Positions 1 through 37,712 of a stretch of 46,768 nucleotides of DNA are shown here, piece by piece; the first letter of the stretch is position 1; every line of letters starts with the position of its first letter. The position numbers and the translations under genes were made by a program. This stretch comes from a virus. The notes beneath the pieces were generated by a model. The model was given only the letters and a program-made list of their open reading frames with translations, made no database searches and was not told the origin of the DNA. The stretch is taken from positions 1 to 46,768 of the IMG/VR virus record IMGVR_UViG_3300021364_000040. The stretch is one strand, 5' to 3'.

Positions 1-276
1 AAATTTATTAGGAACCTAGAAAGCAGAATCTATGCACAGCTATCTAAACAATTAGTTGAATCAATGTTTAGTAATGATGAAGCTTCAAGCTTTGGGTCAT
101 TTACACTTGAAGGAAGTGTTATTACATGGGAGGTAATAACTAACGCAGACGGAACTGATGTTATTAAAATGACAATTGTTGATACCGAAGGAACAACAAC
201 AGTTATAGAAATTCCAGTCGGAACAGGAAACTTTGGACAAGACCCTGATGCGGGAACTGGTGGTGGAGATGGTTAA
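1..276 (+). CDS. csgF: CsgF-like curli assembly factor (5' end outside window)
   Basis: The reading frame is open from base 1 to the stop at 276, giving 91 C-terminal residues. The visible part matches the C-terminal half of CsgF: an amphipathic LESRIYAQLSKQLVESMF helix, then a Ser/Gly-rich linker, a beta stretch around EGSVITWEV and a strand around TIVDTEGTTTVIEI, ending in a Gly/Asp tail. In characterised curli systems CsgF is secreted, binds the CsgG pore and couples nucleation to secretion. The next gene, overlapping by 8 nt, is a clear CsgG, which strongly supports the call. The internal ATG at 64 is not needed as a start. The signal peptide and N-terminal CsgG-plugging segment cannot be checked here. 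Confidence 0.8.
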   Translation, partial: KFIRNLESRIYAQLSKQLVESMFSNDEASSFGSFTLEGSVITWEVITNADGTDVIKMTIVDTEGTTTVIEIPVGTGNFGQDPDAGTGGGDG

Positions 277-1219
277 GTATTTACTTGCACTAACCCTTCT
301 AATAAGTGGCTGTGCATCAGTCCCAAAGTTTACGGAAACACCCCAAGATTGTAGAAACTGGGAACAAGGTGTCCGAAAGGATATGGCAACTGGAATAAAG
401 AAACCAGTCACAAGAGATTATATTTGTGTAGAGTTTCCCGAAGTTGTTAAATTACCTTCATACGTAGAACTTTTAAATCTTCCCCCTGCTGAAGAAAAAC
501 CTATTGTTGCAGTATATAACTTCAATGATAAAACTGGTCAGAGAAAAGCAAGGGAAGGTATTGCAGATTTCTCTACTGCAGTCACCCAAGGTGGTGTCGA
601 AATGGTTATCGATGCACTTAAGACTGCTGGTGGTGGAACATGGTTTAGAGTTGTAGAACGAAATGGAATCGATGCGTTAGTCAGAGAAAGACAGATTATT
701 CGTTCTGCAAGACAAGATTTTGCGAAAGCAACGGACACTGAGGCAAAAGGTGTCCAACCCTTACTATTTGCTGGAATTATAATTGAAGGTGGAATAGTAG
801 GATATGATACTAATATCCAAACTGGAGGCTCAGGCGCAAGAACCCTCGGAATAGGATATAGTCAACAATATCGTCAAGATGTTGTGACCATTTCAATGAG
901 AGCAGTTAGTGTTCTTACTGGAGAGGTATTACTTAATGTGCAAACTCGGAAATCAATACTATCCGTGGGTGGTGGTGCAGACTTATTTAAGTTTGTAGAA
1001 CAAGGAACCCAACTAGTAGAGATTGAAGACGGAGTGGGAAATAATGAATCAGTGACTTATGCAGTGAGAACTGCTATAGAAGCTGCAGTGTTAGAATTAG
1101 TTTACCAAGGACACGATAGAGGTTTTTGGAAAATAACAGATGGACATCGTCACCCTCATCAAGCAGATGGGACTAACGAACTCCATGATTTAAATACAGA
1201 GGAAAACGAAAATGAATAA
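269..1219 (+). CDS. csgG: CsgG-family outer-membrane lipoprotein pore
   Basis: A protein of 316 aa that follows CsgG along its length. The N-terminus is a lipoprotein signal with lipobox LISGC (Cys15). It shares AVYNFNDKTGQ, DFSTAV, VVERNGIDALVRERQIIR, the GGSGARTLGIG beta-barrel segment, QTRKSILS and DRGFWKI with CsgG. CsgG forms the nonameric channel that exports curlin subunits. I chose ATG 269 because it gives a proper lipoprotein signal and follows a GGTGGAG ribosome site; an upstream in-frame start at 233 adds only a hydrophilic tail. Oddities: an insertion near residues 26-55 with two cysteines (C28, C53), a His/Asp/Glu-rich C-terminal tail, and a constriction loop that differs from E. 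coli (no Tyr; Asp100-Phe101). It overlaps csgF and the curlin-like gene. Confidence 0.93.
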   Translation: MVKYLLALTLLISGCASVPKFTETPQDCRNWEQGVRKDMATGIKKPVTRDYICVEFPEVVKLPSYVELLNLPPAEEKPIVAVYNFNDKTGQRKAREGIADFSTAVTQGGVEMVIDALKTAGGGTWFRVVERNGIDALVRERQIIRSARQDFAKATDTEAKGVQPLLFAGIIIEGGIVGYDTNIQTGGSGARTLGIGYSQQYRQDVVTISMRAVSVLTGEVLLNVQTRKSILSVGGGADLFKFVEQGTQLVEIEDGVGNNESVTYAVRTAIEAAVLELVYQGHDRGFWKITDGHRHPHQADGTNELHDLNTEENENE

Positions 1220-1946
1220 ACTTATTAGTTTTTGCTTAATTGCAATAATGTCGACACCAATTCTTTTCGCACAATCCACTGATGATAACGAGATTAAGAT
1301 TACCCAAACAGGTGATACTTTAGACTTGTATATAGACCAAATTGGATTTGGTAATAAGATAGGTTCTGATGCAACTGCTACAGGAGCTATGACTATTACT
1401 GGTGCAACTTTGGACTTTGATTTGGATTTTATAGGAAATTCAAATACTCTGTTCGGTTCTGTTGAAGCAGACAGTTCAGTATATAAACTAGACTTTACTG
1501 GTGATTCAAACAGTATAGACTGGTTAATCGGAGATGTAGGAAGTGCAGATTCATCGGACATTAACTTTGATGTCACTGGAAGTAGTAATACTTTTGACCT
1601 TGACCAAGGTAGTGTGTATAGTGCAGAGAGACTTAATTCAGACTTAATACTAATCGGTAGTTCGAATGTTTTTGATATTGATTGGGAAAGTGATGACTTA
1701 ACTTGGGACTTTGAAGTCACGGGTTCAAGTAATAATATTAACACACTTCAGTCAGACGGGGAACAATCTTTGGTTGTTGACCTAGACGGAGATAGTGCAG
1801 ATATGGATATTACACAAATTAGTGGAACATGTTCGCCGTCAAACGCTTCATGTGCAACACCTAATGCACTAATTACATTGGATATTACAAGTGATAATGC
1901 AACAATCCAAATTACTCAAAAAGATTCATCTAGCGATAGTAATTAA
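1212..1946 (+). CDS. Curlin-like secreted repeat protein
   Basis: A protein of 244 aa with a Sec signal peptide (MNKLISFCLIAIMSTPILFA). It is followed by repeats of roughly 22-26 residues built around motifs such as LYIDQIGFGN, FTGDSNSIDW, VTGSSNTFDL, LIGSSNVFDI and VTGSSNNINT, and ends with a TQKDSSSDSN tail. The G(S/N)SN and (D)QxG spacing resembles curlin (CsgA/CsgB) beta-arcade repeats. It is richer in Asp and poorer in Gln/Asn than classical CsgA. The ATG overlaps the csgG stop codon by 8 nt, so the two are translationally coupled. It is probably a substrate of the adjacent CsgG pore. Whether it forms amyloid cannot be told from sequence. Confidence 0.72.
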   Translation: MNKLISFCLIAIMSTPILFAQSTDDNEIKITQTGDTLDLYIDQIGFGNKIGSDATATGAMTITGATLDFDLDFIGNSNTLFGSVEADSSVYKLDFTGDSNSIDWLIGDVGSADSSDINFDVTGSSNTFDLDQGSVYSAERLNSDLILIGSSNVFDIDWESDDLTWDFEVTGSSNNINTLQSDGEQSLVVDLDGDSADMDITQISGTCSPSNASCATPNALITLDITSDNATIQITQKDSSSDSN

Positions 1947-3054
1947 TCTTATGTTTATCAGTGGGGTTGCATTCAGTGACCCCATTGGTGATATCGTAGA
2001 GTCAATTGGACTCGGAAAAATTACACGTCAAAATACAGATTTCATATCACCTGAAATAGGTTATGATATTGAATTGTATGACGTTGCAGAAACAGTAAAT
2101 GGGAGAATGAAGATTGAGTTCTTAGACGAAGAAGAACTTGACTTAATCGAACATACAATTGTATACATTGACGAAGTGTATTACGACCCCGACCCTTCTA
2201 AATCAAAAATGGCTATGAGAATGGTGCAAGGAACGGCACGATTTGCTTCAGGTAAGGGAAACAAAATAAAGAAAGCAAACATAGACATATCAACTCCAAC
2301 TGCTCAGATAGCAATTAATGGAACAGATTTCACAACAACTATTGACGAACTAGGAAGAACACTTGTTATACTTTTGCCTGACGAAGACGGAATAACACCT
2401 TCAGGTGAGATTAGAGTATATAACGAAGGTGGAGAAACTATACTGAATAAGGCATATCAAGCAACAATGGTATCAAGTTTAGACCAACCACCAACTCAAT
2501 CAGTAGTAATAAACAATTTAACAGTTAATCTCATTGACAATATGTTTATTGTTAACCCACCACAAGAAGTAAAACAAGCAGTAGAGGAACAGGCTTCAGA
2601 TGACCTTGATGAAGACCAAGGTGTTCTTGATGTTGATTTTCTAGAATTCAATGAATTAGAAAAAGATATAGATGATTATACAGATGAGAATTATGATGCA
2701 AGAGGAAGTAGACTAGATATAGATTTTCTAGATGTAGACTTCCTTACAGATTTATTAGACATAGTAGAAGCATTAGAAAAGACAACTGTAAGTCTTGGTG
2801 ATGCACAAAAAGGACAAACAGGTGATTATGACCTAAAGGGTGCAACACTTGGATTCAACAAAGATTCACAATTTAACGTATTTGTAGAAGATGGAAACTT
2901 ATATCTGTATAGAAATGTGAATGGTGTTATTGAAATAACCATTGCATCAGGTGGTTCAGGTTTCATAGACACTAGGGTAGAAGGTTGGGAAGGTATAATT
3001 GAGTTCGGAAACGGAGACCCCAGCATACGTATCTTTATCAATCAATCTAACTAA
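1897..3054 (+). CDS. Secreted FecR-domain protein
   Basis: The start at ATG 1897 (or GTG 1891) gives a good signal peptide: KLLKK, then a hydrophobic LAIVINLMFISGVAFS, then DPIGD. A later ATG at 1951 would cut off the charged n-region. The early start overlaps the previous gene by 50 nt. Mature residues about 35-160 resemble FecR domains (VNGRMKIEFLDEEELDL, MVQGTARFASG, IDISTPTAQIAINGTDFT, LGRTLVILLPDEDG). FecR-like domains are often encoded beside curlin genes. An acidic repeated stretch follows (VLDVDFLEF, LDIDFLDVDFL) and then a beta-rich C-terminal domain. The role is unknown; the position suggests a periplasmic or surface accessory of the curli-like module. Confidence 0.7.
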   Translation: MQQSKLLKKIHLAIVINLMFISGVAFSDPIGDIVESIGLGKITRQNTDFISPEIGYDIELYDVAETVNGRMKIEFLDEEELDLIEHTIVYIDEVYYDPDPSKSKMAMRMVQGTARFASGKGNKIKKANIDISTPTAQIAINGTDFTTTIDELGRTLVILLPDEDGITPSGEIRVYNEGGETILNKAYQATMVSSLDQPPTQSVVINNLTVNLIDNMFIVNPPQEVKQAVEEQASDDLDEDQGVLDVDFLEFNELEKDIDDYTDENYDARGSRLDIDFLDVDFLTDLLDIVEALEKTTVSLGDAQKGQTGDYDLKGATLGFNKDSQFNVFVEDGNLYLYRNVNGVIEITIASGGSGFIDTRVEGWEGIIEFGNGDPSIRIFINQSN

Positions 3055-3057
3055 ATA
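3051..3057 (+). promoter_or_regulatory. Possible late promoter core (CTAAATA)
   Basis: CTAAATA overlaps the stop of the FecR-domain gene and lies 18 nt before the next ATG, which has its own AGGAGGC ribosome site. It resembles the T4-type late -10 element, but the match may be chance in AT-rich DNA around a TAA stop. Confidence 0.3.
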
Positions 3058-3075
3058 ATACATAGGAGGCAACTT

Positions 3076-3222
3076 ATGGATACTTTAATAAAAGTCTTTA
3101 AGTGGCATGAGAGAAGAACCGAATGGTGGTTAAACGAATTCGGTATGACTCAATATCAAGCTATGTGGTTTGCATGGTGTAAAGGTATATTAACAATATT
3201 AATATTACAATGGATATTTTAA
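3076..3222 (+). CDS. Small protein with C-terminal hydrophobic segment (48 aa)
   Basis: A 48-codon gene with a strong ribosome site (AGGAGGC, about 6 nt before the ATG). The N-terminal half is charged and Trp-rich (WHERRTEWWLN). The C-terminal half is hydrophobic (MWFAWCKGILTILILQWIF), so the protein is probably a short membrane or membrane-associated peptide. Its stop overlaps the start of the second curlin-like gene by 13 nt, placing it inside the curli-like operon. I recognise no family. Confidence 0.6.
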   Translation: MDTLIKVFKWHERRTEWWLNEFGMTQYQAMWFAWCKGILTILILQWIF

Positions 3223-4013
3223 AGAAAACATTTCTTATCATAGGGATTTCTATAATCCCTATGTTTTCTTATGCAGACGATAATCACGTTCATGTAGAAC
3301 AAGTCAATGGTGGTGACAATGCAGATTTATCAATTGACCAAATAGGTTATAATAACCTTGCACGTTTTTCTTTTGACCACCAAAATAATACAATAGACCT
3401 TTTACAATCAGGAAACAATTTGTATATTGGTTGGACTGATACATGGGGTTCGGGTAAAAGTTGGGGTGGTGATTTAGACGGATATAATAATGAATTAGAA
3501 GTTAGACAAAAATGTTCTGTCACAAGTTGTAATGATAATGATTTTGGATTTCATATATGGGGTAATTACAACCAAGTTGTTTTTGGTCAAGGATATGAAA
3601 TCAACAACTCACTTACACCTACTTGGAGTTATGACGGAACGGAGCCTGGTGGAAACTATGTAAGATTAGATATTCATGGTGACTACAATGACTTTAAAGG
3701 AAGTCAGAAACAAGATTCAGATTCAATAAGTCATTCAATGACTTGGAACATTTATGGTGATTACAATGACGTATTTTCAAAACAATTGCAGAATGGTGAT
3801 AAGACACTTACTGGAACAATTAACAACGATTACAATGAAGTTAGTGTAATTCAGAAAAAGACTGGAGCTCACACTGCAACAATAACACTAGACGGAACAT
3901 ACGGAACAGATTTAACCTTAGTTCAAACAGGTGATACTGCACAATCATATACACTATCTCAAACATGTAATACAATAGGTGGTTGCACTTTAAACGTCAC
4001 TCAAGGTAATTAA
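3210..4013 (+). CDS. Second curlin-like secreted repeat protein
   Basis: A protein of 267 aa with a signal peptide (MDILKKTFLIIGISIIPMFSYA). Its repeats contain LSIDQIGYNN, IDLLQSGNN, GDLDGYNNELEVRQ, IWGNYNQVVFGQ, IHGDYNDFKGSQKQ, IYGDYNDVFSKQ, INNDYNEVSVIQK and TLVQTGDTAQSYTLSQ. The recurring x-G-x-Y-N-x-(V/F) plus Gln spacing, about 20-25 residues apart, is like curlin repeats, here with DYN in place of GNxA. It is a paralogue-like partner of the first curlin-like gene (compare IDQIGFGN with IDQIGYNN). This could parallel a CsgA/CsgB pair. Its last base is the first base of the cyclase start codon. Confidence 0.72.
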   Translation: MDILKKTFLIIGISIIPMFSYADDNHVHVEQVNGGDNADLSIDQIGYNNLARFSFDHQNNTIDLLQSGNNLYIGWTDTWGSGKSWGGDLDGYNNELEVRQKCSVTSCNDNDFGFHIWGNYNQVVFGQGYEINNSLTPTWSYDGTEPGGNYVRLDIHGDYNDFKGSQKQDSDSISHSMTWNIYGDYNDVFSKQLQNGDKTLTGTINNDYNEVSVIQKKTGAHTATITLDGTYGTDLTLVQTGDTAQSYTLSQTCNTIGGCTLNVTQGN

Positions 4014-5857
4014 TGTATTCGTGGAAAACAGTTGTAATAACCATAGGGTTATTATTCGGTCTTAAGATATGGAATCCCTATTTCATAGAAAATATATCAT
4101 GGTCTTATTTTGATTATCTACACCAATCTCAGGAAGTAGTTCAGGTAGACAATATTGTCTTAGTAGATATAGACGAATCTTCACTTGAAGTGTATGGTCA
4201 GTATCCTTGGCCAAGGTCTATTTACAGGGATTTAATGCTTGACACTTCATACACTAATACACATGTTTTCACTCAACTCTTTAAAGAACCTGATAGGTTT
4301 CAGGGTGATGAGGCATTTGCAGAAGGTTTAGTTAACCGATTATCGATTCTATCTTCTGCACCAACAATTCAAAAAGATACTGGTTCTGCACCTTTTGTAA
4401 GAACTAGTGTTTTCGGTGGAGGAAATATAGAAGACCATATATGGAGTTTTTCAGGAATTTCTTCACCTATTCCAATACTAGAACAAAATTCATATGGTTC
4501 AGGTGTGACAATTACCACACCACCTATTAGTGGAACTGCAAACTTTGACGGAACAGTTCGTTCTGCACCATTAATTGTTTCTGCAAATGGTGTAGTGTAT
4601 CCCTCAGTTGCACTAGAAGTTTTACGTGCAATGTATGACGAACCTAATTATCAGACTCGTGTGACACCCGAAGTTGGAATCGAATGGATTCGTATAGGTA
4701 GACAACCCCCAATCGAAACCACTCCAACTGCAGATATCCTTGTAGGATATTGGAATAATTTCGAAAGGGTGTCGGCAAAAGATTTACCAAATTCTAACCT
4801 AGAGAACAAGACTCTAATTTGGGGTCTGACGGCTGAAGGTCTGAATAATCCAGTTTCAACCCCAGTGGGTGTAAAGTATCCTCACGAAGTTCAAGCTTCA
4901 ATCCTCCACTCCGTCTCCACAGGAGTTCAAATACAACAATCCTACTATCTTGAATTCTTAGAAGTCGTTCTTCTATTGACAGTCCTTTTAGCAATATTGG
5001 TATCGGTCTACACACTTCCCACAATTTTTTCGGGGATAGTGAGTCTAGGTATCGTTGGATTTCAGGTGGGTTTGGGTTTCTATTTGTGGACTTCAAGTTT
5101 CGTTCTTTTCGATATCTTCTACTCATCGATGGCCTCCATAATAGTTTTTGGACATGCTTCCTTCAACAAATATTATAAAACCTATCAACTCAAAGAACAA
5201 ATTAAGAAGCAGTTTCAAAAGTATTTATCTCCCGACATGGTTGACCAACTTGCAAAAAACCCCGACTTATTAAAACTAGGTGGTGAAAGAAAAGAAATGA
5301 CATTCATGTTCATGGACATATGTGGATTCACACCCATAAGTGAACACTATAAAAACAATGACGACCCCGAAGGATTAGTTGAACTCATAAACAAGTTTCT
5401 TGACATGCAAACAAAGATAATCCTAAATAATAAAGGAACAATCGACAAATACATGGGCGACTGTATTATGAGTTTTTGGAATGCACCTTTGGATTGTCCA
5501 AATCATGCTGAACTAGCAGTTAAGTCTGCAATAGAAGTATTAGCTGCAACCAAGGAACTCAATGAAGAACTTAAACCCCTCAACCTACCTCCTATCAATG
5601 TTGGTATTGGTATCTCTACAGGTGAGTGCATCGTTGGAAACATGGGGTCAGAAGTTAGATTTGACTATTCCGTCATTGGAGACGCCGTCAACCTTGGGGC
5701 TAGACTCGAGGGACAAACTCGAAATTACGAAGGGGTGGACGTGTTGTTATCATCAGAAACATATCGACAGTGTCCAAATAGAACATTCTCAGAAGTTGAT
5801 AGAATCAAGGTTAAAGGAAAGTCAGAACAGGTCACTATTTACACTCCGATTAGTTGA
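4013..5857 (+). CDS. CHASE2-domain class III adenylate cyclase, membrane-bound
   Basis: A protein of 614 aa. It has an N-terminal membrane helix, then a periplasmic CHASE2-type sensor (about 25-300: VDNIVLVDIDESSLEVYGQYPWPRS is the family's opening), three close transmembrane helices (about 310-385), a short linker (YLSPDMVDQL) and a class III cyclase domain (about 415-610). Catalytic features are present: metal Asp435 (FMDICGFT) and Asp483 (KYMGD), Lys479 for adenine recognition, and Asn560 and Arg564 (VNLGARLE). The second base-specifying position, usually Asp or Thr, appears to be Ser553. The expected reaction is ATP to cAMP. It overlaps the second curlin-like gene by 1 nt, so it probably belongs to the curli-like operon. 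I know of no common precedent in T4-type phages. Confidence 0.92.
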   Translation: MYSWKTVVITIGLLFGLKIWNPYFIENISWSYFDYLHQSQEVVQVDNIVLVDIDESSLEVYGQYPWPRSIYRDLMLDTSYTNTHVFTQLFKEPDRFQGDEAFAEGLVNRLSILSSAPTIQKDTGSAPFVRTSVFGGGNIEDHIWSFSGISSPIPILEQNSYGSGVTITTPPISGTANFDGTVRSAPLIVSANGVVYPSVALEVLRAMYDEPNYQTRVTPEVGIEWIRIGRQPPIETTPTADILVGYWNNFERVSAKDLPNSNLENKTLIWGLTAEGLNNPVSTPVGVKYPHEVQASILHSVSTGVQIQQSYYLEFLEVVLLLTVLLAILVSVYTLPTIFSGIVSLGIVGFQVGLGFYLWTSSFVLFDIFYSSMASIIVFGHASFNKYYKTYQLKEQIKKQFQKYLSPDMVDQLAKNPDLLKLGGERKEMTFMFMDICGFTPISEHYKNNDDPEGLVELINKFLDMQTKIILNNKGTIDKYMGDCIMSFWNAPLDCPNHAELAVKSAIEVLAATKELNEELKPLNLPPINVGIGISTGECIVGNMGSEVRFDYSVIGDAVNLGARLEGQTRNYEGVDVLLSSETYRQCPNRTFSEVDRIKVKGKSEQVTIYTPIS

Positions 5858-6161
5858 CCCACCAACTACAGGTGATTGGGTAGCTTTTATAGGATTGCAA
5901 CTTGCAGATGTCTACACTACATATCGTGGACTCAAATATGATTGTGTAAGAGAACTAAATCCTATCATAGGTGAAAGACCTTCAGTCAGTGATATGGTCT
6001 TCACTAAGAGTGTATTACTTATTCCATCAATACAATACGATTTAAGAAAAGGTAATATATCCTCAAAAACTGTAAAAGGGATAAATGGATTTATGTTAAT
6101 CGTTGTAGGAAACAACTATAAAGTCTGGCATGATTCTGAAAAGAATTGTAAAAAAATATAA
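5796..6161 (+). CDS. Small membrane protein, DUF5658-like; start unclear
   Basis: The conserved part (from about 5865) reads DWVAFIGLQLADVYTTYRGL, then ELNPIIGE and FMLIVVGNNYKVW. It has two or three hydrophobic segments and the LQxADxxTT...ELNP pattern that I associate with DUF5658-type membrane proteins. The frame is +1 relative to the cyclase. No ATG in this frame lies between 5600 and the conserved region. Possible starts are TTG 5796 (62 nt inside the cyclase gene) or TTG 5895, which would cut the conserved start. The frame is open further upstream to an ATG at 5562, but there it runs through the conserved cyclase core and is probably a shadow. A frameshifted cyclase fusion or a gene that lost its 5' end are alternatives. 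Confidence 0.5.
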   Translation: MIESRLKESQNRSLFTLRLVDPPTTGDWVAFIGLQLADVYTTYRGLKYDCVRELNPIIGERPSVSDMVFTKSVLLIPSIQYDLRKGNISSKTVKGINGFMLIVVGNNYKVWHDSEKNCKKI

Positions 6162-6840: not shown

Positions 6841-7362
6841 ATGTTAACAGTTGGACAACAATTTCCTGCGTTCTCACTGCAAGGAATTAATGAAAACAAC
6901 GAATTTGTGAGAGTTAGTGTAGACGAAAATTATCAACCATTAAAACATGATTGGTCAGTAGTTTACTTTTATCCAAAAGACTTTACCTTTATATGTCCTA
7001 CAGAGATTGCTGGTTTCGACACTTTAGTTGACCATGCAAACGTGATAGGAATTAGTGGTGATAACGAGTTCTGTAAATTAGCATGGAAACAAGATAATGA
7101 ATTGATAGGTAATATCAGACATACACTTGCAGCTGATTGTGGACTAGGATTATCTTCACTATTGGGTATTGTCAATGAAGAAGAGGGTGTATGTTATCGT
7201 GCAACCTTTATCTTTGATAAAAACAGAATCATTCAACATGCTTCAGTCAATGCATTAGACACTGGAAGAAACCATAACGAAGTTCTAAGAACTTTGAAAG
7301 GTTTACAAGCAGGTGGACTAACTGGTTGTGCATGGGACGATGGGGACGAGTTTGTCGGATAA
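6841..7362 (+). CDS. 2-Cys peroxiredoxin (AhpC/Prx1 type)
   Basis: A protein of 173 aa with a thioredoxin fold. The peroxidatic Cys52 sits in DFTFICPTE and the resolving Cys163 in GLTGCAWDDGDE near the C-terminus. GISGDNEFCKLAW is the usual central segment. It reduces hydrogen peroxide and organic peroxides in the cytoplasm, using a thiol donor (host thioredoxin or AhpF-like, or possibly the phage glutaredoxin). It is slightly shorter than typical AhpC (about 187 aa). It has its own promoter at 6781 and overlaps the methyltransferase gene by 23 nt. It probably protects an infected cell from oxidative stress. Confidence 0.93.
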   Translation: MLTVGQQFPAFSLQGINENNEFVRVSVDENYQPLKHDWSVVYFYPKDFTFICPTEIAGFDTLVDHANVIGISGDNEFCKLAWKQDNELIGNIRHTLAADCGLGLSSLLGIVNEEEGVCYRATFIFDKNRIIQHASVNALDTGRNHNEVLRTLKGLQAGGLTGCAWDDGDEFVG

Positions 7363-13416: not shown

Positions 13417-13812
13417 ATGGCATATAGTAAACAAGTGATTGAGAGGTTCGAAGGTGTTTTAAATTCACCCGAACAATTCTCAGTTGGAAGATTTGACCCT
13501 AACGACCCGAATGTAGCAACAGGAATGACGGGTGCTCCCGCATGTGGTGACGTTATGAAACTCCAATTGAAACTAAATCCCGATACCAATGTTATAGAAG
13601 ACGTAAAGTTTAAAACATATGGTTGTGGAAGTGCAATCGCAAGTTCAACTATGTTCGTTGATATGTTAAAAGGTTTAACTATAGACGAAGCCAAGGAAAT
13701 TAAAGATAAGGATATTGCAGACGCATTAGAACTTCCACCTATAAAACTACACTGTTCAGTGTTAGCAGAAGATTCAATCAGACGTGCAATCCAAAACTGG
13801 GAAGAAAAATAA
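13417..13812 (+). CDS. iscU: IscU Fe-S cluster scaffold protein
   Basis: A protein of 131 aa that is IscU-like over its whole length. It has the three cluster ligands Cys43 (GAPACGDVMKLQL), Cys70 (YGCGSAIASS) and Cys113 (LHCSVLAED), with Asp45 and His112. The chaperone-recognition motif LPPIK (106-110) matches the LPPVK that HscA binds. It should hold nascent [2Fe-2S] clusters made by the host cysteine desulfurase and pass them on via HscA/HscB. No IscS, HscA or HscB genes are nearby, so it depends on the host machinery. It shares its last base with the next start codon. It has its own late promoter and no leader. Confidence 0.95.
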   Translation: MAYSKQVIERFEGVLNSPEQFSVGRFDPNDPNVATGMTGAPACGDVMKLQLKLNPDTNVIEDVKFKTYGCGSAIASSTMFVDMLKGLTIDEAKEIKDKDIADALELPPIKLHCSVLAEDSIRRAIQNWEEK

Positions 13813-31021: not shown

Positions 31022-32050
31022 ATGCTATGGTTAGAGAGAAAATATCTTTCCCGTATTGTTTCACTCGTTGAACAGGGAAAATGGAAGAACGACAATACAC
31101 TGAATCATCGGTGTCCCTATTGTGGTGATTCCCAAAAAAATCAGTTCAAGGCACGTGGATTTCACTTTACGATAGGACAAAACTTTGTCTATAAATGTCA
31201 CAATTGTGGTCACTCCACCTCTTCTGTTAATTTTCTCAAAGACCATTACCCAGTTATTCATAAGGAGTATCTAAAGGAGTGGTTGACTGAGTCAGGTAAG
31301 AAACCTAAGAAACCTCAGAAAATGTTGAGTGCAAACGAATTCAAGTTCACTCCAAATAAAGAATTACTAAATATGAAGAAAGTCGATTTGAGTGCAGTAG
31401 CTTTTAAAGTGACCGATAAGGTCGTTGCACAAGAATTTGTAGAACGTAGACAAATTCCAAAAGAAAGAATTGATGAACTTTGGTTCACACCTCAGGCACA
31501 ATCTCTAGGTTTATTATCACCTAAGTATAAGGATAGAGTGTTGGGGAATGACCCAAGAGTTGTATTACCATTCATAGACGAGAATGGGGAATTAGTTGGT
31601 GTCACGGGTCGTGCAATAAATGATTCACCCCTCAGATACTTGACCATGAGATTCCTAGATGACGTTCCACTCATCTATAACATTGGAAATGTGGACAAAA
31701 CTAAAACTGTTTATGTGACTGAAGGGCCTATAGACAGTTTATTCCTACCAAACAGTATTGCAGTCGGTGGTAGTGATTTCAAAAAACTAGATGACTCGTT
31801 AAAAGAAAATGCAGTAATCATTTATGACAACGAACCACGAAATGCACAAATAATTAAACAGATAGAAGAGGTAATAGACCTCGGCTATAAAGTGTGCATA
31901 TGGAATGAAAGAAGAGTGAGTGAGTATAAAGATATTAATGATATGGTAATTGGTGGTTTGAGTCAGAATGATATAATTGAAATTATAAATTCTAATACTT
32001 ATAGTGGCCTTTCAGCAAAAGCAAAATTACAGGAGTATAAGAAGGTATGA
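31022..32050 (+). CDS. 61: DNA primase (gp61, DnaG-like)
   Basis: A protein of 342 aa with an N-terminal zinc-binding domain (CPYC 31-34, CHNC 59-62). A TOPRIM-containing catalytic part follows: VYVTEGPIDSLFL (the E-G-x-x-D element) and VIIYDNEPRN (the D-x-E element). It makes RNA primers for lagging-strand synthesis with the gp41 helicase. It heads the nucleotide-metabolism operon and overlaps nrdA by 4 nt. Confidence 0.93.
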   Translation: MLWLERKYLSRIVSLVEQGKWKNDNTLNHRCPYCGDSQKNQFKARGFHFTIGQNFVYKCHNCGHSTSSVNFLKDHYPVIHKEYLKEWLTESGKKPKKPQKMLSANEFKFTPNKELLNMKKVDLSAVAFKVTDKVVAQEFVERRQIPKERIDELWFTPQAQSLGLLSPKYKDRVLGNDPRVVLPFIDENGELVGVTGRAINDSPLRYLTMRFLDDVPLIYNIGNVDKTKTVYVTEGPIDSLFLPNSIAVGGSDFKKLDDSLKENAVIIYDNEPRNAQIIKQIEEVIDLGYKVCIWNERRVSEYKDINDMVIGGLSQNDIIEIINSNTYSGLSAKAKLQEYKKV

Positions 32051-34374
32051 ATTCAGACATAAAAGTTTTAAAATCTGACGGGTCAAAAGTAGAAATCGAT
32101 TTAGATAAAATCCATAAAATGGTTCACAAAGCCTGTAAGAAGATTACAGGTGTATCAGAGTCATTGGTAGAAATGAACAGTGGTTTACAATTTTATGACG
32201 GAATCACAACAAAAGAAATTCAAAAGATACTTGTCAAAAGTGCAAGTGATTTGATATCATTAGAGTCACCAAATTATCAATTTGTTGCAGCTAGATTACT
32301 TCTATTTGCAATTCAAAAACAAGTCTTTAATACAAAGTGGAAGGATTCAGAAATCTATCCACCTCTTAAAGATATCATTGAGAGAAACATAGAATACGGA
32401 GTATATGACGATGACATATTGAAATGGTATAAGGAAGAAGAGTTAGAAACATTAGACAAATATATCAAACACTCACGTGACCTTACATTTACATATGCTG
32501 GATTACAACAAATAGTAGACAAATATCTAGTGCAAGATAGGTCAAGTGGATTGGTATATGAAACACCACAATTCATGTATATGTTAATTGCCATGACTTT
32601 ATTCAAAAAGTATGGTGGTGAACTAGGAGACAAAATAGAGTATGTCAAAAAATACTATGACGCAATCTCAACATTCAAAATCAATATCCCAACCCCTATC
32701 ATGGCTGGAGTTAGAACTCCTTTACGACAATTTGCATCGTGTGTCCTTGTCGATACAGACGACACTCTCGACAGTATCTTCTCAAGTGATATGGCGATTG
32801 GAAAATATGTTGCACAAAGAGCTGGTATCGGAATTAACGCAGGAAGAATACGAGGACTTGGTTCAAGAATTAGAGGAGGTGAAGTCCAACATACTGGAGT
32901 CATACCTTTCCTTAAGAAATTTGAATCAACTGTTAGATGTTGCACCCAAAATGGTGTCAGAGGAGGAAGTGCGACAGTCCATTTCCCAATATGGCACCAA
33001 GAAATAGAAGACATTCTAGTATTAAAGAATAACAAGGGAACAGAAGATAATAGAGTTCGTAAACTTGACTACTCAATACAATTAAGTGAACTCTTTTATC
33101 AACGTTTTCTAAAGAATGAAGACATTACATTATTCTCACCACACGAGGTGGAAGGATTGTATGATGCATTTGGAACACCCGAGTTTGACGAATTGTATAT
33201 AAAGTATGAGAATGCATATTCTATTCCAAAAACTAAAGTCAATGCAAGAGAACTATTCTCTAGTTTATTAAAAGAACGTGCAGAGACAGGTAGAATTTAT
33301 ATCATGAATATAGACCATAGTAATAGTCATAGTTCATTTAAAGATAAAGTGAACATGAGTAATCTATGTCAAGAGATAACATTACCTACAGACCCTATTC
33401 AACATATTGAAGGGAGTGGTGAGATTGCACTTTGTATTTTAAGTGCAATCAATGTTGGTATTGTTAAAGAAGAAGAGTTGGAATCTCTTTGTGATTTATC
33501 AGTGAGAGGACTTGAAGAACTGATAGATTTCCAAGAGTATCCAGTAAAAGCTGCAGAAATGTCAACCATTGCAAGACGTAGTCTTGGTATTGGTTATATA
33601 GGGCTGGCACATTACCTTGCAAAAAATAAGGTCAATTATAGTGACCCTCAAGCTTGGAAACTGGTTCATGACCTAACAGAGAGATTCCAATACTATCTTC
33701 TTAAATCGTCAAACAATCTTGCAAGAATCAATGGTGCATGTATAGATTTCAACAGAACAAAATATCATGACGGAATCTTACCTATTGATACATACAAGAA
33801 AGACGTAGACGAGTTGGTTCCAAATAAACTCAATATGGATTGGGAAAAACTCAGAAAAGATATCAAACAATATGGATTAAGACACTCAACATTGACTGCA
33901 CAAATGCCGTCAGAGAGTTCTAGTGTCGTTTCTAATGCAACGAATGGTATTGAACCACCACGTGACCACCTAAGTGTTAAGAAGAGTAAGAAAGGAACAC
34001 TTAAACAGGTAGTTCCACAATATTCTATATTGAAGAACTCTTATACATTACTATGGGATATGCCTGATAATACAGGATATATCAATGTAGTTGCAGTCAT
34101 GCAGAAGTTCTTTGACCAAGCAATCAGTGGAAACTGGTCTTACAATCCCGAGAATTATGAGAACGGAGAAGTTCCAGTATCAGTAATGGCAAGGGATTTA
34201 CTTAACACATATAAATACGGGTGGAAGACAAGTTATTATCAGAACACCATGGACGGGAAAACTGAAGACGTAATTACAGACCCTAATTCAGCGTCTAATG
34301 ATTACATACCACCTATGTTGGATTCAGTGAGTAGTGATGAAGGAGAAGAAGATTGTGAAGCATGTGCCATTTGA
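32047..34374 (+). CDS. nrdA: Class Ia ribonucleotide reductase large subunit
   Basis: A protein of 775 aa. An N-terminal ATP-cone (about 4-95: KVLKSDGSKVEIDLDKIHKMV) is followed by the catalytic barrel. Cys232 and Cys463 form the redox pair, and Asn439, Cys441 and Glu443 (NLCQE) form the active site. The tail CEACAI carries the shuttle cysteines. PSESSSVVSNATNGIEPP is the usual phosphate-binding stretch. It reduces NDPs to dNDPs with NrdB and uses glutaredoxin (gene at 37028). The presence of an ATP-cone suggests dATP feedback control. Confidence 0.97.
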   Translation: MNSDIKVLKSDGSKVEIDLDKIHKMVHKACKKITGVSESLVEMNSGLQFYDGITTKEIQKILVKSASDLISLESPNYQFVAARLLLFAIQKQVFNTKWKDSEIYPPLKDIIERNIEYGVYDDDILKWYKEEELETLDKYIKHSRDLTFTYAGLQQIVDKYLVQDRSSGLVYETPQFMYMLIAMTLFKKYGGELGDKIEYVKKYYDAISTFKINIPTPIMAGVRTPLRQFASCVLVDTDDTLDSIFSSDMAIGKYVAQRAGIGINAGRIRGLGSRIRGGEVQHTGVIPFLKKFESTVRCCTQNGVRGGSATVHFPIWHQEIEDILVLKNNKGTEDNRVRKLDYSIQLSELFYQRFLKNEDITLFSPHEVEGLYDAFGTPEFDELYIKYENAYSIPKTKVNARELFSSLLKERAETGRIYIMNIDHSNSHSSFKDKVNMSNLCQEITLPTDPIQHIEGSGEIALCILSAINVGIVKEEELESLCDLSVRGLEELIDFQEYPVKAAEMSTIARRSLGIGYIGLAHYLAKNKVNYSDPQAWKLVHDLTERFQYYLLKSSNNLARINGACIDFNRTKYHDGILPIDTYKKDVDELVPNKLNMDWEKLRKDIKQYGLRHSTLTAQMPSESSSVVSNATNGIEPPRDHLSVKKSKKGTLKQVVPQYSILKNSYTLLWDMPDNTGYINVVAVMQKFFDQAISGNWSYNPENYENGEVPVSVMARDLLNTYKYGWKTSYYQNTMDGKTEDVITDPNSASNDYIPPMLDSVSSDEGEEDCEACAI

Positions 34375-35320
34375 AGATAGAACTGTAGAATTAGTTATAG
34401 AAGAAGAGTCTAACGGAAAGATAAAAAAATATCCATGGAATACAAATAGACTTACTGCAGATTTTGTAAAAAATAGATATGTTGTATTGAGGGATTTCAT
34501 TCCTAAAGATATCATAAACATGACACTGGATACATGGAAAACTGCAGAACATAGAGAACATGTTCATGGTGCAATATTCAAACGTGAAACTAATGACATA
34601 ACATTTAATTCACCAAAAAATTCTATAGGAAAATCTGATGGTGCTTACTGTTCTCCATGGGGTGTTGCATTAAATAGATACCTATGTGATAAACTTAGAG
34701 GTGTTCTTGATATAGATATAAGGGAAACTTACTCTTACACTAGAAAATATGACAGAGGTGCATATCTATCTTCACATAGAGATAGACCTGCTTGTGAGAT
34801 ATCTACAACTGTTTGTTTAGATTATCAAACAGACGATGGTAAACCATGGGTGATATGGGTTGATAATTCTAAGAATTGGGTTGACCATGACGTGACCAAG
34901 ACAATGCAAGAGCAAACTCAAGGAATACCTAATAGACAAAGAAAGTCAATTCCAATATCATTAGAGGTTGGTGACGTATTAGTATATCAAGGGCCTAATG
35001 TTGCACACTGGAGAGATTATTTGATAGGTGATTATAGTTATCACATATTTTGTCATTTCTTTAATGCAGAGGGAATGTTTAGTAGACACCCTAAAAATAG
35101 GTGGCCAGGTGAGGACAAAAACTTAGAGCATGACCTTACAAAGTATCCTATGCCTTTAGAATATGACGGAAGATTATCAAGGTATCATACACAAGAGAAT
35201 GCACCTGATGAATTGAAGAATGGATACAAAGAATTTGTAGATTCATACGAATCATGTGAATATGCACCACGTAGTGAATTTGCAAATAATTACTTAACAT
35301 TTAAGGAAAAAGAAAAATGA
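34355..35320 (+). CDS. 2OG-Fe(II) oxygenase-like protein between nrdA and nrdB
   Basis: About 321 aa. GTG 34355 is preferred because AAGGAG lies about 10 nt upstream; ATG 34337 and GTG 34364 are alternatives. The core has SSHRDRPACEIS (H-x-D iron ligands), VLVYQGPNVAHWRDY (distal His) and a following arginine-containing segment (YHIFCHFF) consistent with a double-stranded beta-helix oxygenase. The substrate is unknown. It is inserted in the reductase operon, so nucleotide or DNA modification is possible, but this is inference. Confidence 0.65.
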   Translation: MKHVPFEDRTVELVIEEESNGKIKKYPWNTNRLTADFVKNRYVVLRDFIPKDIINMTLDTWKTAEHREHVHGAIFKRETNDITFNSPKNSIGKSDGAYCSPWGVALNRYLCDKLRGVLDIDIRETYSYTRKYDRGAYLSSHRDRPACEISTTVCLDYQTDDGKPWVIWVDNSKNWVDHDVTKTMQEQTQGIPNRQRKSIPISLEVGDVLVYQGPNVAHWRDYLIGDYSYHIFCHFFNAEGMFSRHPKNRWPGEDKNLEHDLTKYPMPLEYDGRLSRYHTQENAPDELKNGYKEFVDSYESCEYAPRSEFANNYLTFKEKEK

Positions 35321-36414
35321 CAGTTTTTAACAAAAATAAGATAGACTTCACTAAGAATAAAATGTTCTTTGGTGAAGAATTGAACACGCAAAGATTTGAC
35401 GAGTTCAAATATCCTATTTTTGATAAACTTACACAAACACAATTAGGTTTCTTTTGGAGACCCGAAGAAGTATCTCTTCAAAAAGATAGAAGTGATTATC
35501 AACAATTAACACAAGCACAAAAACATATATTTACCTCTAATTTGAGGTATCAAACCTTACTCGACTCAGTTCAAGGTAGAGCTCCGTCCATAGCATTCTT
35601 ACCTTTCGTGACTTTGCCTGAACTTGAGTCTTGTATTATCACTTGGGACTTTATGGAGACTATTCATAGTCGTTCATATACTCATATCATTAAGAATGTA
35701 TATGCAAACCCAAGTGATATCTTTGACACTATACTGGACGAAGAAGCAATCGTAAAACGTGCAGAAATGGTCACTCAAAAATATGACGAATTTATTGCAC
35801 TTGGTCGTAGAAGATTACTTGGTTTAAAAGTTGACGATTATGACCTTTATAAAGCATTATATCTTGCACTTATAAGTGTAAACATTTTAGAGGGAATCAG
35901 ATTCTTTGTATCCTTTGCATGTTCTTTTGGATTCGGAGAACTGAAACTTATGGAAGGAAGTGCAAAGATTATATCTTTCATTGCAAGGGACGAATCACAA
36001 CACCTTGCAATCTCACAACACATTCTTAAAGCATATAAGAATCAAGAGAACGATAAACTTATGAATAAAGTTATGAAGGATTGTGAACAGGAAGTGTATA
36101 AGTTATATGAGGACGCAGTTCAACAAGAGAAAGATTGGGCAGAGTTCTTATTTAAGGACGGGTCAATGATTGGACTAAGTGTTCCATTGTTGGGTCAATA
36201 TATAGAATTTATTGCAAACAAGAGATTACGTGCATTAGGATTAAACCCTATATACGATATCTCTAGTGCAAACAACCCTTTACCTTGGACACAACACTGG
36301 TTCAACAGTAGAGGACTTCAGAATGCACCACAAGAAACAGAGATTGAATCTTATGTGATTGGGGGTATTAAACAGGACGTGTCAGACGATACGTTTGCAG
36401 ACTTTAAATTATAG
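35317..36414 (+). CDS. nrdB: Class Ia ribonucleotide reductase small subunit
   Basis: A protein of 365 aa. The diiron and radical residues are in place: Asp83 (LLDSVQGR), Glu114 and His117 (METIHSRSYTH), Tyr121 as radical tyrosine, and the second-helix ligands around ILEGIRFFVSF and ARDESQHLA. The Phe/Leu-rich C-terminal end (TFADFKL) fits the NrdA-docking tail. It supplies the tyrosyl radical to NrdA. It overlaps the oxygenase gene by 4 nt. Confidence 0.97.
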   Translation: MTVFNKNKIDFTKNKMFFGEELNTQRFDEFKYPIFDKLTQTQLGFFWRPEEVSLQKDRSDYQQLTQAQKHIFTSNLRYQTLLDSVQGRAPSIAFLPFVTLPELESCIITWDFMETIHSRSYTHIIKNVYANPSDIFDTILDEEAIVKRAEMVTQKYDEFIALGRRRLLGLKVDDYDLYKALYLALISVNILEGIRFFVSFACSFGFGELKLMEGSAKIISFIARDESQHLAISQHILKAYKNQENDKLMNKVMKDCEQEVYKLYEDAVQQEKDWAEFLFKDGSMIGLSVPLLGQYIEFIANKRLRALGLNPIYDISSANNPLPWTQHWFNSRGLQNAPQETEIESYVIGGIKQDVSDDTFADFKL

Positions 36415-36423
36415 GAGTATATT

Positions 36424-36588
36424 ATGGAAATAGGACTATTATTTGCAATTGCAATATTATCACTTGCAGCGATATATGGTCTGTTAGTAAGAAACCTTGA
36501 GGGAACGAAAGGTATTACAAAACCATATAAAACAAAATCAGGCAGACTTAGAACTGCAAGAAAATCAAGGGAGAGACATTTAGTATGA
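36424..36588 (+). CDS. Small membrane protein with basic tail (54 aa)
   Basis: The ATG follows a TAGGAG site. One hydrophobic helix (IGLLFAIAILSLAAIYGLLV) is followed by a basic tail (KPYKTKSGRLRTARKSRERH). It overlaps the cytochrome gene in an ATGA. No family is recognised. It could be a partner of the membrane-anchored cytochrome next to it. Confidence 0.6.
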   Translation: MEIGLLFAIAILSLAAIYGLLVRNLEGTKGITKPYKTKSGRLRTARKSRERHLV

Positions 36589-37028
36589 AAGAATTAGGAA
36601 TGGCATTATTAGGAACATTTGCGATTGCATTGTTCTTTGGGTTTAAAGTATATCCCGATTTAGAATACACTGGTGTTGATGGTGGTCATTCATGCACGGG
36701 AGAGTGTTATGAAGAATATGTTGCAATCAATGGAACAGTGGTAGAGATTGAACAGAAAAAGAAAGAACTTGCAAACAAAGATGAGTTCTCTACAATTAGA
36801 AGTTTATGGGCTGGTTGTGCAGCCTGTCATGGTCAGAATGGTGAGGGAATGGCAGTATTTCCAGCACTTAAAGGTCAGACAAAGGATTATATTACAGATA
36901 GACTCTACGCATACAGAAATAAAGAGAATGTCGGTGCAATGTCCTCAACTATGTGGGCACAAGCTGGTATGTTAACTGATTCAGACATCGAAACAATCGG
37001 TGAATTTATACAAAAGGAGTTAAAATAA
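36585..37028 (+). CDS. Membrane-anchored class I cytochrome c
   Basis: A protein of 147 aa. An N-terminal uncleaved helix (about 5-22) is followed by a periplasmic linker with CTGEC (Cys37, Cys41) and a cytochrome c domain. The heme-binding motif is CAACH (Cys78, Cys81, His82); a Met in GAMSSTMWAQ (Met119 or Met123) would be the sixth ligand. TDSDIETIGEFIQ is the usual C-terminal helix. It would transfer electrons at the periplasmic face of the inner membrane, with host heme-attachment machinery. It lies between nrdB and glutaredoxin genes. Phage cytochromes are rare, so it is notable. Confidence 0.92.
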   Translation: MKELGMALLGTFAIALFFGFKVYPDLEYTGVDGGHSCTGECYEEYVAINGTVVEIEQKKKELANKDEFSTIRSLWAGCAACHGQNGEGMAVFPALKGQTKDYITDRLYAYRNKENVGAMSSTMWAQAGMLTDSDIETIGEFIQKELK

Positions 37029-37282
37029 TGGGTAAAGACGATACAGTAATTATTTACGGAAAAACACAATGTCCATATTGCGATAGAGCAAAGGCATTAT
37101 GTGAACAGAGAGAGTTCAACTACACTTATAAACAATTAGACGTAGATTTCACTGCAGAAGAAATGAAAGAAGAATTTCCTAATGCAAGAACTTTCCCTCA
37201 AATCATTTTTAATGGTGCAAAAATAGGTGGATATGATGCACTTGAATCTATTGTTGCACACCAAGATTCTCAAGGTGACTAG
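37028..37282 (+). CDS. grx: Glutaredoxin
   Basis: A protein of 84 aa with the CPYC redox motif (Cys15, Cys18), TFPQIIFNGAKIGGYDAL (cis-Pro and GG glutathione-binding segment). It reduces ribonucleotide reductase and other disulfides with glutathione. It follows the cytochrome gene with a one-base overlap. Confidence 0.95.
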   Translation: MGKDDTVIIYGKTQCPYCDRAKALCEQREFNYTYKQLDVDFTAEEMKEEFPNARTFPQIIFNGAKIGGYDALESIVAHQDSQGD

Positions 37283-37548
37283 TGAAAAAGTTTAGATTAT
37301 ATCTGAACCCACCACATAAACAATCAGTTCAAGATAGAAGGTGGGAACACTTATTTAAAAATATAGATAGAGAATTTCAAGAAGTCAGAACACTAGTTGC
37401 TGGATTAGATTTCTATCAACCTGAAGCAAAACACCCACTTCCGTATGCAACACTTGACGGAAAGAAAAAGAGTTTTGAGAATTTATACAAAACTATTATG
37501 GTGGATTCGGGTAAAACAGAGGACGATTATATCCCAAAGGAGGAATAA
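37282..37548 (+). CDS. Conserved hypothetical protein (88 aa)
   Basis: GTG start overlapping the glutaredoxin stop by one base. A basic N-terminus (KKFRLYLNPPHKQSVQDRRWEHLFKNIDREFQEVRTLVAGLDFY) and an acidic C-terminus. No family is recognised. It shares the A of its final stop with the start of the zinc-ribbon gene. Confidence 0.6.
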   Translation: MKKFRLYLNPPHKQSVQDRRWEHLFKNIDREFQEVRTLVAGLDFYQPEAKHPLPYATLDGKKKSFENLYKTIMVDSGKTEDDYIPKEE

Positions 37549-37712
37549 TGGAAGAAGAATTTGCATTTAGACTTTATTGTCAATCATGTAAATCAGAGTG
37601 TGAAGTGTATCATCATATGGATTCACACCAATATGAATTAGATTACTGTCCATTTTGTGGTGCAGAAATTGACGAAGACACAAGAGAAGAGATACACGAA
37701 GAGGAAGAATAG
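37548..37712 (+). CDS. Small zinc-ribbon protein (54 aa)
   Basis: It has YCQSCKSECEV and YCPFCGAEI, two CxxC pairs 22 residues apart, typical of a zinc ribbon. A very acidic tail follows (IDEDTREEIHEEEE). AAGGAGG lies upstream. The role is unknown, perhaps nucleic-acid or protein binding. Confidence 0.7.
   Translation: MEEEFAFRLYCQSCKSECEVYHHMDSHQYELDYCPFCGAEIDEDTREEIHEEEE

Follow-up and report, generated by a model that had tools for sequence, protein, structure and literature searches.

Cyanophage control of photosynthetic electron transport is well known. Cyanophages encode plastocyanin (petE), petF and PTOX in genes that lie close together at variable positions, in a cassette that includes an endonuclease (PMC3037559), and in infected Prochlorococcus PTOX and COX have been proposed to act as an electron sink (PMC5082946). 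Phage soxD auxiliary metabolic genes, which encode the sulfane dehydrogenase cytochrome subunit and carry a c-type cytochrome domain, have been described on two contigs (PMC8190135), and cbb3 oxidase reads have been reported from the viral fraction (PMC3474794). A study of oxygen-poor waters did not observe electron carriers such as cytochromes in its phages (PMC8115048). In the open-licence literature we found no report of the cytochrome family described below, of alternative oxidase (AOX) in phages of heterotrophs, or of a comparable hold on respiration by phages of marine heterotrophs.

The DNA analysed here, referred to as the window, is IMG/VR virus record IMGVR_UViG_3300021364_000040, with a length of 46,768 bases. 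It derives from a T4-like marine phage. Its nrdB gene matches those of the T4-like SAR11 phages HTVC008M and Mosig at 66-68%, and it carries CsgG/curlin genes, as do T4-like phages of the HTVC008M, Mosig and Melnitz type; the OM43 phage Melnitz, like HTVC008M and Mosig, has no cytochrome. Curli genes are known from pelagimyophages and from Melnitz (PMC7029224, PMC9004378). In the window they occupy positions 233-4013 and encode CsgG (PF03783, 7e-51), a curlin-repeat protein and a FecR-domain protein, and adjoin a gene (4013-5857) for a predicted membrane protein with CHASE2 (PF05226, 1.3e-26) and adenylate/guanylate cyclase (PF00211, 8.5e-19) domains. Elsewhere the window encodes a peroxiredoxin (6841-7362; PF00578, 5.8e-23) and a NifU/IscU-like iron-sulfur scaffold (13417-13812; PF01592, 3.5e-38).

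The nrdB-glutaredoxin locus and its cytochrome c

The order at the locus is nrdB, a 54-residue membrane peptide, cytochrome c and glutaredoxin (Table 1). ORFs and database matches both place the cytochrome gene where the earlier note had put it, between nrdB and the glutaredoxin gene. Reading frames overlap: the stop codon of the peptide and the start codon of the cytochrome share an ATGA, and the stop codon of the cytochrome and the ATG of the glutaredoxin gene share a TAATG. The starts of these ORFs are preceded by purine-rich, ribosome-site-like stretches, for example AGGAG. In the interval between nrdA and nrdB, an ORF at 34334-35320 matches PHROGs labelled ferrochelatase (1.6e-30) and no Pfam family, and this label looks doubtful.

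Table 1. Features of the nrd-cytochrome region, in window coordinates
Feature	Position	Strand	Evidence or remark
nrdA, ribonucleotide reductase alpha subunit (context)	32047..34374	+	order nrdA-nrdB-cytochrome-glutaredoxin common to many contigs
nrdB, class Ia ribonucleotide reductase beta subunit	35317..36414	+	68% to HTVC008M nrdB
54-residue membrane peptide ORF	36424..36588	+	single hydrophobic helix, basic C-terminal tail
Cytochrome c ORF, membrane-anchored, single-haem class I, 147 residues	36585..37028	+	PF00034, 2zzs, Foldseek, ligands in 73/73
N-terminal hydrophobic helix, about residues 2-22	36588..36650	+	helix 2-20 in AlphaFold model
CxGxC motif (C37, C41), linker ahead of haem domain	36693..36707	+	invariant, 73/73
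CAACH haem-attachment motif (residues 78-82)	36816..36830	+	CXXCH in 73/73
Met123, predicted sixth haem ligand	36951..36953	+	73/73; aligns with conserved Met of c554
Glutaredoxin gene	37028..37282	+	PF00462, 3.9e-12
Zinc-ribbon small ORF	37548..37712	+	weak zinc-ribbon matches (Pfam)

By profile, CXXCH motif, methionine ligand and fold, the product is a class I c-type cytochrome. It matched PF00034 (Cytochrom_C) with E=6.1e-9 and 37.5 bits, where the curated cut-off is 21.3, and its nearest solved chains were c554 (2zzs, 1.5e-13), 8yts and c552. An AlphaFold model built from 26 sequences (pLDDT 75) comprises one N-terminal helix, a linker that is modelled at low confidence and a helical haem domain, and a Foldseek search with this pLDDT 75 model returned c546/556 (7.9e-5), c554 (2.2e-4) and also c552. 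The N-terminal helix is likely a signal anchor; we saw no lipobox at the N-terminus.

The haem domain shares its fold and ligands with c554 from Vibrio parahaemolyticus (2zzs), c552 from Pseudomonas nautica (1cno) and c546/556 from Thioalkalivibrio paradoxus (8yts), at 34-42% identity over about 70-80 residues. Unlike these proteins, the phage cytochrome has a membrane helix at its N-terminus, and a linker about 50 residues long, which carries the invariant CxGxC, precedes its haem domain. Cellular relatives comprised PDB chains and plasmid records only, about 30-42% identical and mostly across the haem domain. No PHROG family was matched by the cytochrome. The single CXXCH within 147 residues does not fit a dihaem cytochrome c4, and scores of 23.8 of 27 bits for PF13442 and 21.1 of 179.95 bits for TIGR00782 fall short of the cbb3 subunit CcoP. 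Profile searches gave no match to the SoxD family; CxxCHG is present but CMxxC is absent, and conserved neighbourhoods contain no soxC.

In all 73 distinct relatives, CXXCH, Met123 and both cysteines of CxGxC are unchanged, and the N-terminal 31 residues include a 17-residue stretch whose Kyte-Doolittle mean is at least 1.76. The CAACH motif, methionine ligand and N-terminal anchor that the earlier note had read from the letters are present in the window, and the 73 relatives keep all three, the haem motif in the form CXXCH. Pairwise dN/dS between cytochrome genes (NG86; pairs with dS below 1.5) had a median of 0.184 and a maximum of 0.33 over 170 pairs. Since the ligands are invariant in 73 of 73 relatives and the median dN/dS is 0.184, the function of the cytochrome is under selection. 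This invariance, with relatives on at least 483 viral contigs, goes well beyond what chance would produce.

Occurrence and mobility of the cytochrome gene

Relatives of the cytochrome numbered 266 in IMG/VR by a single-protein scan and at least 483 contigs by an alignment scan, both of which were pattern-based and give lower bounds. The 80 relatives that we kept are 65-80% identical, in nearly all cases across the full length. Their neighbours include nrdA/nrdB and uvsW, T4-type RNase H, genes for subunits of a recombination nuclease and others of this kind, and in several cases, including records of 114 kb, 146 kb and 250 kb, the T4 capsid gene gp23 shares the contig with the cytochrome. No record in the isolated-phage collection carried the cytochrome gene. 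Two apparent exceptions were set aside: a tblastn match in Sulfitobacter phage M39 lies out of frame inside a DNA polymerase gene, and matches in Gordonia phages (E 0.2) are not credible. The cytochrome is thus common among uncultured marine T4-like phages and missing from isolates, and the earlier view that cytochromes are rare in phages needs correcting for the former.

A scan of bacterial genomes gave only four matches, all on phage contigs in unrelated or mixed MAG bins, and in each the genes that surround the cytochrome are arranged as in phages. These contigs (L082-L085) sit in MAGs labelled Sphingobacteriales, Planctomycetaceae and Synechococcus, labels that should not be taken for hosts. 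One of the four is 121 kb long, has ORFs that read as T4-like structural proteins and carries an nrdA 97% identical to that of the window. By capsid, the closest isolates to this 121-kb relative are Melnitz, HTVC008M and Mosig (64-67%), for which reason the host of the cytochrome phages is probably a marine heterotroph. Recent transfer from a host, which the earlier note had proposed to look for by comparison with host cytochromes, is not visible: the family with the N-terminal CxGxC was found in phage contigs only. Flanked by phage genes, accompanied by gp23 on several contigs and with a dN/dS of 0.18, the cytochrome qualifies by genomic context and selection as a putative auxiliary metabolic gene.

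The gene occupies several sites, namely between nrdB and glutaredoxin, after a glutaredoxin gene elsewhere, in the interval between uvsW and recombination genes, and beside a cytidylyltransferase-like gene. At the first of these its distribution is that of one gene gained or lost, and close relatives lack precisely this gene: locus L209 reads nrdB-peptide-glutaredoxin, locus L210 reads nrdB-peptide-cytochrome-glutaredoxin, and the ATGA overlaps are kept on both sides. In HTVC008M and Mosig, nrdB is followed directly by a zinc-ribbon ORF, with neither a cytochrome nor an annotated glutaredoxin gene there. In 20 of 48 distinct loci the cytochrome has a GIY-YIG endonuclease gene of the SegE type in its vicinity.

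Electron-transfer genes and membrane peptides in related phages

A neighbour gene in related phages is identified by its PF01786 match and di-iron motifs as an AOX. The example in locus L116 (6110-6703) matched PF01786 at 1.2e-67 and a mitochondrial AOX at 2e-38, and the predicted di-iron Glu/His positions (E33, ENERMH, FEEEA and E175/H178) are at least 97% conserved in the family. Relatives of this AOX were found on at least 176 viral contigs (loci L123-L202 among them); the isolated-phage collection contained it in one record only, annotated as hypothetical, and no cyanophage record matched it at E<=1e-3. Within 2.5 kb, the commonest neighbour of AOX is the cytochrome family (15 of 55 distinct loci; nrdB, 13 of 55). 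Arrangements include cytochrome-AOX-glutaredoxin, nrdB-AOX-cytochrome, and cytochrome-AOX in loci that have no window-type nrdB upstream.

The link between the two genes is not obligate, as most loci of either show only one, with many of them on fragments. Among AOX-bearing records, many of them fragments, 18 of 48 had a cytochrome match; conversely, AOX was present in 4 of 48 records that were nearly all picked for the cytochrome or pseudoazurin and were again in many cases fragments. AOX is absent from the 46,768-base window and none was seen in its 121-kb relative, and the cytochrome is the sole member of the respiratory set that we detected in the window phage.

In locus L063 a pseudoazurin gene with a signal-like N-terminus lies upstream of the cytochrome (5570-6001; PF00127, 4.1e-14; solved pseudoazurin, 1.8e-26). 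It was matched in eight viral contigs (L112-L118 among the loci), and the cytochrome directly follows it in L111, which is the L063 contig, as well as in L112 and L115. A row of genes in L116 encodes, in order, the cytochrome, an EF-hand protein, pseudoazurin, a membrane peptide, a 4Fe-4S-type ferredoxin, AOX and a homologue of the window peptide. Small EF-hand proteins with a signal-like N-terminus recur near pseudoazurin and AOX genes (L116 4618-4869; L117, L185, L190 and L194).

The 54-residue peptide of the window matched no Pfam or PHROG family. The earlier note had drawn attention to this peptide beside the cytochrome, and the ORF is indeed present and overlaps the cytochrome frame. Its family resides at nrdB-glutaredoxin junctions, and 22 of the 29 loci in the family scan have no cytochrome, which weakens a role as a dedicated cytochrome partner; we would group the peptide with the nrd genes. 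A second family of single-helix peptides (55-68 residues, motif HPMKQVAVMSVVQ; for example L059 6441-6620, 59 residues) was found in at least 263 viral contigs. Of 80 loci, 34 have such a peptide next to the cytochrome, on either side of it, but the family often occurs where there is no cytochrome. That both peptides belong to an electron-transfer set, as the row in L116 suggested, was not borne out in these wider scans.

Possible roles and comparison with known phage systems

Small class I cytochrome carriers shuttle electrons between the bc1 complex and oxidases or periplasmic reductases, and c-type cytochromes are finished in the periplasm, for which an N-terminal anchor and the host Ccm machinery are expected. 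We consider it moderately probable that the phage protein is a membrane-anchored carrier between bc1 and a terminal oxidase and forms part of a modular respiratory set in phages of marine heterotrophs. What we infer of how haem is attached, how the protein lies in the membrane, with what it exchanges electrons and what the phage gains is as follows, with bc1, oxidase and Ccm as assumed partners. Produced alongside the nucleotide-supply genes nrdA, nrdB and glutaredoxin, and matured by host Ccm, the cytochrome would act as an electron carrier with its N-terminal helix in the inner membrane and its haem domain in the periplasm. Its electron donor would most likely be the cytochrome bc1 complex of the host, and its acceptor a host terminal oxidase. 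Quinol and NADH would thereby be kept oxidised at a time when host proteins are not renewed, which would answer a need that infection probably creates during nucleotide synthesis.

Judged by co-location, a wider respiratory gene set may exist in uncultured phages. Different phages would supply different parts, with cytochrome c or pseudoazurin serving the cytochrome branch and AOX a bypass, and related phages that add a quinol-oxidising AOX, pseudoazurin or ferredoxin would thus carry a modular version. Because the cytochrome is often found beside AOX and sometimes beside a blue copper protein, these phages probably manage host respiration during infection, and since AOX is a common partner gene among the relatives, the shared theme would be the passage of electrons from quinol to oxygen. 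AOX competes with the cytochrome branch for quinol, and so the two genes need not serve one purpose. AOX pumps no protons, and it is the commonest respiratory neighbour; ATP supply is therefore no likelier than redox balancing, which leaves sustained respiration and energy supply, as first suggested for this gene, as one reading only. More speculatively, and with somewhat less than even confidence, we suggest that the genes form an interchangeable respiratory branch that re-routes host electrons to oxygen, and that the CxGxC linker has a phage-specific docking or regulatory function.

It seems unlikely that the cytochrome instead feeds another host periplasmic enzyme, such as cytochrome c peroxidase or a nitrogen-oxide reductase, in protection from oxidative stress or in the use of other acceptors. 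Such enzymes are known to accept electrons from pseudoazurins and small cytochromes c; the nearest solved structures belong to small soluble carriers and not to oxidase subunits, pseudoazurin adjoins the cytochrome in some phages, and the window also encodes a peroxiredoxin. However, the commonest respiratory neighbour, AOX, reduces oxygen directly, the cytochrome was not seen next to any peroxidase or reductase gene, and the membrane anchor suits a shuttle between bc1 and oxidase. Still less probable is a role other than electron carriage, either as a membrane haem sensor or as a decoy that drives the host cytochrome off its partners and slows respiration, with the CxGxC linker as its effector or docking part. 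Every carrier feature is retained under purifying selection and other electron-transfer genes adjoin the cytochrome in relatives, even though the CxGxC and long linker are invariant yet absent from the small soluble relatives, to which the alignment spans the haem domain only. An assembly chimera or contamination that joined a host cytochrome gene onto phage DNA, conceivable because IMG/VR records are metagenome assemblies and hosts commonly have cytochromes c, is very improbable given hundreds of viral contigs (at least 483) in several gene contexts with phage genes on either side, a reading frame that overlaps its neighbours, gp23 on the same contigs and bacterial-genome matches confined to four phage contigs in mixed bins, so that the attribution to a phage stands.

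Taken together, these observations place the carrier that we favour as an addition to a known class, the phage electron-transport genes. Phage soxD and the window gene both encode c-type cytochrome domains, and the window protein differs in having no CMxxC, no accompanying soxC and no SoxD match. Cyanophage petE, petF and PTOX likewise represent phage-encoded electron carriers and an oxidase of the AOX superfamily, and the endonuclease in the petE/PTOX cassette (PMC3037559) recalls the GIY-YIG gene near the cytochrome. The parallel with plastocyanin and PTOX is functional, as the cytochrome is homologous to neither. A cytochrome family of at least 483 contigs tied to AOX and pseudoazurin would offer a concrete route by which viruses alter oxygen use and energy yield in marine bacteria. 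In contrast to the cyanophage set, the genes described here encode a cytochrome c and an AOX of non-cyanophage type, and the isolates nearest to the phages that carry them infect heterotrophs. An interchangeable respiratory branch, if true, would be for respiration what the photosynthesis genes of cyanophages are for photosynthesis.
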